Assembly: GCA_903886485.1 (NCBI GenBank)
Contig: CAISMH010000014.1
Location: 124,001 to 188,000, forward strand
Length of the DNA stretch: 64,000 nucleotides
DNA from: an uncultured Burkholderiales bacterium
GTDB lineage: Bacteria; Pseudomonadota; Gammaproteobacteria; Burkholderiales; Burkholderiaceae_C
Direction of reading: 5' to 3'
Shown here: positions 1 through 1,917 of the stretch, piece by piece
How the letters are laid out: every line of letters starts with the position of its first letter
How positions within the stretch are numbered: position 1 is the stretch's first letter
The notes under the pieces: model-generated
Told to the model about the DNA's origin: nothing
Database searches by the model: none
Seen by the model: the letters and a program-made list of their open reading frames with translations, nothing else
Translations under genes and position numbers: made by a program

Positions 1-96
1 TGATTAGCACGTCTACAGATGAGCCAGATGAAGCAGGTTTGCACAAATGAGACATCTGACGCTTCAGAGGCTCTAGCTTTGTGCTAAATTCAACCC

Positions 97-153
97 ATGA
101 AAAATTTTTCGTTGGCTCTACTACTTCTATCCCCCTTCGGGCGGAGTTGGTAG
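97..153 (+). CDS. leuL: leu operon leader peptide (18 aa)
   Basis: This short reading frame encodes MKNFSLALLLLSPFGRSW and ends at TAG. Five of codons 6-11 are leucine (TTG, CTA, CTA, CTT, CTA), and CTA is rare in the neighbouring genes, which prefer TTG, CTG and CTC. It sits 105 bases before leuA and just ahead of a terminator hairpin at 173-208, the classic layout of a transcription attenuator. When charged tRNA-Leu is scarce, a ribosome stalled on the leucine run should block the terminator and let leuA be read. There is no clear Shine-Dalgarno before the ATG. The peptide has no expected function of its own. The symbol follows enterobacterial use. Confidence 0.8.
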   Translation: MKNFSLALLLLSPFGRSW

Positions 154-208
154 CGCACGCGCAAACCCACACAAGGCCCGTATGCACATGCAACGGGCCT
201 TTTGCTTT
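138..208 (+). promoter_or_regulatory. leuA transcription attenuator (antiterminator/terminator)
   Basis: A 9-bp perfect stem pairs 173-181 with 193-201 (AAGGCCCGT / ACGGGCCTT), with an inner TGC/GCA extension, and is followed by TTTTGCTTT. Bases 138-142 (CGGGC), just after the leucine codons of the leader peptide, can pair with 176-180 (GCCCG) inside the 5' arm. That gives a competing antiterminator. A ribosome that reaches the leader stop at 151-153 would cover 138-142 and favour termination. One that stalls at 118-129 would leave it free. The hairpin is seen directly; the switching is inferred. Confidence 0.78.
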
Positions 209-258
209 GGGGCTAAACCAAACGTTGCCAGTTTTTTAGGAATCTAGGAGTTCTGACC

Positions 259-1797
259 ATGACCGACAAGCTCATCATTTTTGACACCACTTTGCGTGAC
301 GGCGAACAGTCGCCTGGCGCTTCTATGACGCGCGACGAAAAACTGCGTATTGCTCGGCAGTTGGAGCGATTGAAGGTGGACGTGATCGAAGCTGGTTTTG
401 CTGCGAGTTCAAATGGTGATTTCGATTGCGTGAAGTCAATCGCTGCTGCAATCAAGAACTCCACGATCTGTTCGCTTGCTCGCGCCAATGATCGCGATAT
501 CTCTCGCGCGGCAGAGGCTCTGAGTGGTGCGGCCAATGCAAGGTTGCATATTTTTCTTGCCACCAGTCCTTTGCATATGGAGAAAAAGTTGCGCATGTCG
601 CCAGAGCAAGTACTGGAGCAAGCCAAGCAATCGGTGCGATTTGCGCGTAACTTGATGGGAGATATCGAATTCAGCGCGGAAGACGGCTATCGCAGCGAGA
701 TGGACTTTTTATGTCGTGTGGTCGAGGCCGTGATTCATGAGGGTGCGACAACCATCAACATTCCCGACACCGTGGGCTACGCTATTCCTGAGCTCTATGG
801 CAATTTCATCAAAACCTTGCGCGAGCGTGTGCCTAACAGCGATAAAGCCATTTGGTCTGTTCACTGTCACAACGATTTAGGCATGGCTGTGGCTAACTCT
901 TTGGCAGGCGTGAAGATGGGTGGGGCCCGTCAGGTGGAGTGCACGATTAACGGTTTAGGCGAACGCGCGGGTAACTGTTCATTGGAAGAAGTGGTGATGG
1001 CGATCAAGACTCGTCGCGACTATTTCGATCTCGACTTGAACATCGATACCAAACAAATCGTGTCGGCAAGCCGCATGGTTAGTCAAACGACAGGCTTTTT
1101 GGTGCAGCCAAACAAGGCGGTCGTGGGGGCGAATGCTTTTGCACATGCATCCGGTATTCATCAAGACGGCGTGCTCAAGGCGCGTGACACCTACGAAATC
1201 ATGCGCGCCGAAGATGTGGGCTGGAGTGCTAACAAAATCGTGCTTGGCAAGCTCAGTGGGCGTAATGCATTCAAGCAACGCTTGGAAGACTTGGGTGTGC
1301 AGATGGAAAGCGAAGCCGATATCAACACAGCTTTTGCCAAGTTCAAAGAATTGGCAGACCGTAAGAGCGATATTTTTGATGAAGACATCTTGGCGTTGGT
1401 CAGCGAAGAGTCGGTGACCAATGCCAGCGAACAGTTTGCTTTTGTGTCTTTGTCTCAGCACAGTGAAACTGGTGAACGTCCGCACGCGACCGTGGTATTC
1501 ACCGTTGGCGGCAAAGAGGTCAAAGGTGACTCAGATGGCAATGGTCCTGTTGATGCGTCTTTGAAAGCGATTGAATCTCACATCAAGAGTGGTGCTGAAA
1601 TGGTGCTCTATTCTGTGAATGCGATCAGCGGTTCAACCGAGAGCCAAGGCGAGGTGACCGTGCGTTTGCAAAACAGTGGTCGGGTTGTGAATGGCGTCGG
1701 CTCAGACCCAGACATCGTGGTGGCTTCTGCGAAAGCCTATTTGAGTGCTTTGAACAAGCTGCAAAGCAAGTCAGACAGAGTCGCCGCTCAGGGTTAA
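259..1797 (+). CDS. leuA: 2-isopropylmalate synthase
   Basis: It condenses acetyl-CoA with 2-oxoisovalerate to 2-isopropylmalate, the committed step of leucine synthesis in the cytoplasm. The catalytic TIM barrel starts with [10 protein letters not shown] at residues 8-17, where Asp14 is a metal ligand. HCHNDLG, near residue 200, carries further metal ligands, and GNCSLEE follows. The C-terminal third (about residues 390-505) matches the leucine-binding regulatory domain, so feedback inhibition is expected. At 512 aa it is full length for the bacterial type. The ATG has AGGAG at 245-249. It is preceded by a leucine leader peptide and attenuator and followed by a strong terminator, so it seems to be transcribed alone. 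Confidence 0.97.
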
Positions 1798-1836
1798 GCT
1801 GACAAAACTGATTTTCGAATCAAATTTGTTAGAAAG

Positions 1837-1870
1837 GCCGCGCAAGTCTTTGATCTTGCGCGGCTTTTCT
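1837..1870 (+). terminator. intrinsic terminator after leuA
   Basis: A perfect 10-bp GC-rich stem pairs 1837-1846 (GCCGCGCAAG) with 1855-1864 (CTTGCGCGGC) over an 8-base loop. A T-rich tract follows directly. Confidence 0.9.
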
Positions 1871-1917
1871 TTGGTAGACTAACGACCAATATGTTTTTCA
1901 AGCTAAAGGAACACCAC

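Follow-up and report, generated by a model that had tools for sequence, protein, structure and literature searches.

A conserved leader ahead of leuA in Comamonadaceae is very probably a leucine attenuator on a leaderless transcript

The window (the whole stretch of 64,000 nucleotides that was analysed, from the 2.49 Mb genome, in 21 contigs, of a freshwater bacterium) carries, ahead of leuA, an element that is very likely to be a leucine attenuator of the ribosome-mediated type, acting on a leaderless transcript. This kind of attenuator is already known; the new part is the leaderless variant, with its extended −10 box. The sequence and its comparison among relatives showed the leader, its bias towards leucine and CTA codons, the terminator and the alternative pairing, all of them conserved, together with the −10 box and the lack of a Shine-Dalgarno (SD) sequence. 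An earlier note had placed a leucine attenuator in front of leuA, a proposal supported by the conserved leader, the CTA bias, the terminator and the alternative pairing. The leaderless architecture, a protector pairing (1:2) and the position behind ilvC-pssA, as suggested by the sequence, go beyond that note.

The element lies on the + strand between pssA and leuA, behind ilvC-pssA. The 3′ end of pssA, which encodes CDP-diacylglycerol--serine O-phosphatidyltransferase, occupies positions 1–50 (+ strand), with its TGA stop codon at 48–50. At locus L001, the ORF upstream of the leader matched the TIGR00473 pssA model with 123.9 bits (cut-off 107), and the ORF preceding pssA was identified as the C-terminus of ketol-acid reductoisomerase (ilvC). 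The putatively regulated gene, leuA (positions 259–1797, + strand), encodes a 2-isopropylmalate synthase, with scores of 894.7 bits for NF002087 and 697.4 bits for TIGR00973 leuA_bact (cut-off 599), and an SD sequence, AGGAG, was read at 246–250 (+ strand). Among named relatives, the LeuA protein is closest to those of Burkholderiales/Comamonadaceae MAGs and of Limnohabitans. No match to window positions 1–258 was found in a plasmid collection. Shortly past the leuA stop (1797), we also observed a GC-rich inverted repeat followed by a T run at 1834–1868; it gave a sub-threshold MIR7510 match and is most likely the leuA terminator.

The leader peptide ORF, which resembles leuL and has homologs in relatives, extends from position 97 to 153 (+ strand) and encodes MKNFSLALLLLSPFGRSW in 18 codons plus a stop (ATG AAA AAT TTT TCG TTG GCT CTA CTA CTT CTA TCC CCC TTC GGG CGG AGT TGG TAG). 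Leucine occupies five of codons 6–11, three of these as CTA, just as the earlier note had described, and this stretch (TTG GCT CTA CTA CTT CTA, positions 112–129, + strand) is the putative leucine sensor, a role consistent with the enrichment of CTA among leaders. The window thus holds a short, conserved ORF with 5 leucines in 6 codons ahead of leuA; at 18 codons, such a frame is commonly overlooked by gene finders on account of its length. CTA is the rarest leucine codon, at 53 of the 1690 leucine codons (3.1%) in the 38 window ORFs of at least 300 aa and 0.4% in leuA genes, compared with 42% of the leucine codons in 46 leaders from the same genus and 45% in 59 leaders from the family. Rare leucine codons play a role in the leu leader of Salmonella. 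The leaders also ended more often in TAG (68 out of 105) than the window ORFs did (2 out of 38); both the CTA bias and the TAG stops might be explained by the complementarity of these two codons. A small group of leaders (L031, L032, L093 and L095) exhibited a short leucine run, with three leucines in seven codons.

When window positions 1–258 were resampled (order 1), a short ORF with at least 5 leucines in 6 codons, then a terminator stem of at least 7 bp within 60 nt, appeared in 2 out of 5000 resamples, and the leader is the sole occurrence of this pattern in the 64 kb, both strands included. The combination of leader and terminator is not due to chance.

To describe conservation, leuA upstream regions were taken from genomes of the same genus, family and order (206 usable), using as a pattern the extended −10, a gap of 5–9 nt, an ATG and a short ORF containing 2 or more leucines. 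This pattern was found in 47 out of 49 upstreams from the same genus, 72 out of 131 others from the same family, and 0 out of 26 from other families. Alignment of relatives' leuA upstreams, the check proposed in the earlier note, bore out its expectation: the leucine run, the stem and the CGGGC/GCCCG pairing were conserved, with drift elsewhere. The two upstreams of the same genus without the pattern were L030, with a GTG start, and L102, where the leader has been lost and the apparent 3′ half of the terminator is left, a natural deletion. In both L030 and L287, a GTG apparently serves as the leader start codon, its distance to the −10 box being unchanged. In 44 of the 59 family upstreams that lacked the pattern, the C-terminus of another leuA-like gene lay immediately ahead.

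Of 80 named loci, 77 extended at least 450 nt upstream, and the full pattern was present in 65 of these, immediately ahead of leuA in 53 and ahead of the leading member of a leuA pair in 12, compared with 0 out of 80 reverse strands, 0 out of 1600 resamples and 0 out of 80 downstream stretches. Six of the 12 loci of this length without a match were viewed: in L243 and L283 the leader lay beyond the spacing limit, L287 had the GTG start, L261 carried a decayed leader, and L241 and L257 had none. Named loci with such a pair, L216, L218, L220, L223 and L235 among them, have the leader ahead of a first leuA-like ORF, with a bacterial-type leuA next in line; in L218, the only pair tested, that first gene encodes a 2-isopropylmalate synthase of the yeast type (TIGR00970). 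Overall, the leader is present across Comamonadaceae, including Limnohabitans, Polaromonas, Acidovorax and Hydrogenophaga.

Structural comparisons were based on 105 distinct leaders with GCCCG in the stem, with L025, L132, L166 and L203 left out by hand; 64 of the 105, hand-chosen for similar length and spread, made up alignment A1 and covariance model R1. R1 matched 143 out of 150 family genomes at E ≤ 0.01 (own genome, 9e-33), partly by construction since it was built on selected family leaders; the best E was ≤ 1e-6 in 109 of the 150, and the weaker matches often covered the terminator alone. Among 274 genomes of the class, the three of the own family matched strongly, and the best E of the other 271 was 1.1e-5. 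One strong match (G104:C12) was a further copy of the element, ahead of a different leuA-like ORF, and a weak one (G181:C13) was rejected as a leader, its sequence context resembling a plain terminator behind another gene.

The leaderless arrangement is suggested by a conserved box, the putative extended −10 promoter element TGTGCTAAATT (positions 80–90, + strand), whose hexamer TAAATT lies at 85–90. Transcription is predicted to start at the first base of the leader AUG (position 97, + strand), 6 nt past the hexamer; the conserved box thereby speaks against transcripts that begin downstream of 208, the other refuting condition named in the earlier note. Among 112 leaders from the 206 usable upstreams, picked by their leucine run and terminator alone, blind to the −10 box, 104 carried TGnTAnnnT 2–11 nt ahead of the ATG (consensus TGTGCTACATT), with an expectation by base counting of about 1%. 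In three of the eight leaders without it (L025, L132 and L166), a wrong in-frame ATG had been picked. Spacing from the −10 to the ATG among the 104 was 6 nt (63 leaders), 7 nt (35), 8 nt (4) or 9 nt (2). Ahead of the leader, 99 of the 112 had no SD core, and 108 of the 112 had an SD core of at least 4 bases at leuA. The window leader likewise fits what is expected of a leaderless mRNA, namely a −10 element 6–8 nt from the start codon and no SD. Because the extended −10 sits 6–7 nt before the AUG and the SD is missing, the leader mRNA is apparently leaderless, with its AUG at +1, a layout that is uncommon for attenuators. Transcription starts prefer a pyrimidine at −1; such a base preceded the leader AUG in 92% of 119 leaders, and was also found at leuA in 77%. 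In the own genome, TGTGCTAAATT followed by 6 nt and ATG occurs exactly twice: at the leuA leader, and directly ahead of a Phd/YefM antitoxin ORF (G000:C19:363794-363813, L290; PF02604, 5.5e-11), a gene that is probably leaderless as well, judging by this layout.

A leucine attenuator could also operate here without being leaderless, if TGTGCTAAATT were something else and polymerase came in from ilvC-pssA, or else from an upstream promoter. Such entry would fit with pssA being on this strand and ending 46 nt before the leader, with the strict promoter scan, in which no sigma-70 site was found at the window leader, and with the lack of a conserved −35 among the 112 leaders. We nevertheless consider this unlikely, given that it must be set against an extended −10 box in 104 of the 112 leaders, 98 of them with a spacing of 6 or 7 nt, against the SD counts at the leaders and at leuA, and against the other copy of the pattern in the own genome, whose ATG starts the antitoxin ORF. 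Upstream entry and a leader-proximal promoter could act together.

Downstream of the leader, the terminator consists of a 5′ arm, AAGGCCCGT (region 3, positions 173–181, + strand), and a 3′ arm, ACGGGCCTT (region 4, positions 193–201, + strand), forming a 9-bp stem followed by a U-rich tract, CCTTTTGCTTT (positions 198–208, + strand); a T run also follows the stem in relatives. The 9-bp hairpin is the one given in the earlier note, and its competing CGGGC/GCCCG pairing was found as well: the CGGGC core of region 2 (positions 138–142, + strand), the 5′ arm of the antiterminator, pairs with GCCCG at 176–180, within region 3, and overlaps the leader ORF. In alignment A1 (64 sequences), 98.4% of the terminator cells were paired, a percentage inflated because the rows were chosen for carrying such a stem, and 18 cells were changed on both sides, a count which this selection does not affect. 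The core of the antiterminator (2:3) was paired in 95.9% of cells; it is nearly invariant and therefore gives no covariation of its own. The inner antiterminator helices predicted for the window had no covariation support in A1. A third pairing, the 1:2 or protector hairpin, joins region 1, made of leucine codons (positions 118–127, + strand), to the 3′ part of region 2, GGAGTTGGTAG (positions 143–153, + strand), which includes the stop codon; it was predicted by the MFE fold and was moderately conserved, with 69.7% of cells paired over the 64 sequences versus 32–49% for slid partners.

Taken by itself, the hairpin between pssA, which ends at position 50, and leuA would look the same if it were an ordinary terminator of ilvC-pssA, with a separate leuA promoter downstream and an incidental leucine-rich frame. 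This explanation appears highly improbable: an incidental frame leaves unexplained the joint conservation of the leucine run, the CTA bias, the fixed spacing between −10 and AUG and the CGGGC of the leader, and the element precedes an upstream leuA-like gene in 12 of the 77 named loci, yeast-type in the one tested.

What is conserved in the leaders, as far as their sequences indicate, is the RNA pairing and not the peptide, since region 2 is kept at three offsets and in three frames while the peptide ends differ. The GGGC/GGGT of region 2 preceded the stop by 12 nt (70 leaders), 8 nt (21) or 4 nt (3), with L026, L028 and L090 of the 8-nt group carrying the 12-nt copy too; it was found in all three reading frames (82, 21 and 8 of 111). 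GCCCG followed at most 90 nt past the stop in 117 out of 119 leaders. The peptide ends varied by clade (GRSW, GLDQ, GPRQ, PRAR and KAG). That the leader peptide or the terminated RNA of about 110 nt acts in trans, with control of leuA secondary, has a precedent in the leaderless leader RNA of S. meliloti (peTrpL/rnTrpL), according to the available text of PMC7298713, but is very unlikely here because conservation follows the RNA switch, the pairing persisting while the peptide ends (GRSW, GLDQ, PRAR, KAG) vary.

For the leaderless leucine attenuator, the following course is proposed. Transcription would start from the extended −10 promoter (80–90), no more than one base away from the leader AUG (97), and a ribosome would start on the 5′-terminal AUG without an SD sequence and translate the leucine run. 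If charged tRNA-Leu were scarce, above all for the rare CTA, the ribosome would stall at codons 6–11 and cover region 1; CGGGC (138–142) would then pair with GCCCG (176–180), no terminator would form and leuA would be transcribed. With plentiful leucine, the ribosome would reach the stop codon and cover region 2, leaving the 173–201 hairpin and its U tract to end transcription in vivo before leuA. If no ribosome were loaded, the 1:2 hairpin would hold region 2, and the terminator would form too. Expression of leuA would accordingly be expected to follow tRNA-Leu charging.

Folding predictions, which are equilibrium folds, were consistent with this course. The RNA of positions 97–215 folded at −45.4 kcal/mol (z −3.67), with 0 out of 200 shuffles as low. 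In the free window RNA, the leucine codons paired with 143–153 (−20.4 kcal/mol for the RNA as far as region 3). When a ribosome was placed on leucine codons 6–10, the CGGGC/GCCCG helix was the best fold once region 3 was made (−14.0 to −15.4 kcal/mol), and with a ribosome at the stop codon the terminator alone remained. A stall at the last leucine codon (127) covered part of region 2, and the antiterminator was lost. Among the 96 of the 105 leaders with at most 20 aa, stalled-ribosome folds contained the antiterminator in 94, versus 44% of 1920 synonymous recodings, and the full switch behaviour was observed in 71 (74%), versus 30% of the 1920; in 23 of the 96, the antiterminator (2:3) was predicted without a stalled ribosome. 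When recoded leaders were resampled with leuA codon usage, the native 1:2 pairing was better in 76 and the 2:3 pairing in 87 of the 96. A more conservative resampling, with codons drawn from the leaders, left a weak advantage (77 and 81 of the 96, respectively), and the 1:2 pairing of the window itself was no better than controls of the latter kind (z −0.1).

The closest known counterpart is the enterobacterial leuL attenuator (RF00512, Leu_leader), which also senses leucine ahead of leuA by means of a leucine run with CTA codons and a terminator competing with an antiterminator. The window leader differs in having no sequence match to it, no SD, a −10 box beside the AUG and a position between pssA and leuA. 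In 20 leuA-upstream loci, and over the leader region of the window, no Rfam 15 family (T-box, RF00512 and others) reached its gathering score. A Thr_leader match over 109–207 was rejected (20.4 bits versus 55), and a sub-threshold RF00512 match lay elsewhere in the window (1775–1871; 16.7 bits versus 50). The available text on S. meliloti trpL/rnTrpL describes an RNA whose 5′ end is the start codon (ATG) of its leader ORF (PMC7298713), thus a leaderless attenuator like the one proposed here; it concerns tryptophan and trpE(G) in Alphaproteobacteria, however, and not leucine and leuA. The actinobacterial LEU element, as presented in the available text of PMC1262725, is likewise an upstream ORF with a run of leucine codons before leuA, but there a pseudoknot is formed whose base stem joins the leucine run and the leuA SD, in contrast to the terminator and antiterminator of the window. 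Among titles and opening abstract lines of the open-licence literature and in Rfam 15, we found no description of a betaproteobacterial leuA leader.

A second class of leucine leaders, ending in ...LLLxGLLLRxAR and putatively leaderless, was observed before leuA in other betaproteobacterial families (L072–L089 and L320–L357). In the order sample from other families, 45 out of 64 upstreams had a −10-like box 5–10 nt ahead of a leader with a leucine run, compared with 0 out of 64 reverse strands and 3 out of 1280 shuffles. Thirty-eight of these 45 leaders fitted a loose ...LLR..-type end pattern, 37 had no SD and none had a GCCCG..CGGGC terminator. The 30 nt past the stop were rich in C and poor in G (C 0.40, G 0.13; n = 27), and an alignment (A2) of 16 of these 27 sequences showed a conserved leader end and no obvious common structure. 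It is possible, if somewhat less than probable, that the leucine-sensing leaders of betaproteobacterial leuA genes go back to a common leaderless ancestor and that the output part has been exchanged, with a terminator and antiterminator in Comamonadaceae and a different output, which may be Rho-dependent termination or control of translation, in other families. If so, initiation on the 5′-terminal AUG would link the sensor to the pathway by which leaderless mRNAs are initiated.

For Comamonadaceae, the element would represent a family-wide and testable control point for leucine. Its leaderless layout raises the question of how an attenuator that needs tight coupling between the first ribosome and RNA polymerase would work without an SD sequence, and the leader's many naturally occurring variants could serve to test this coupling.
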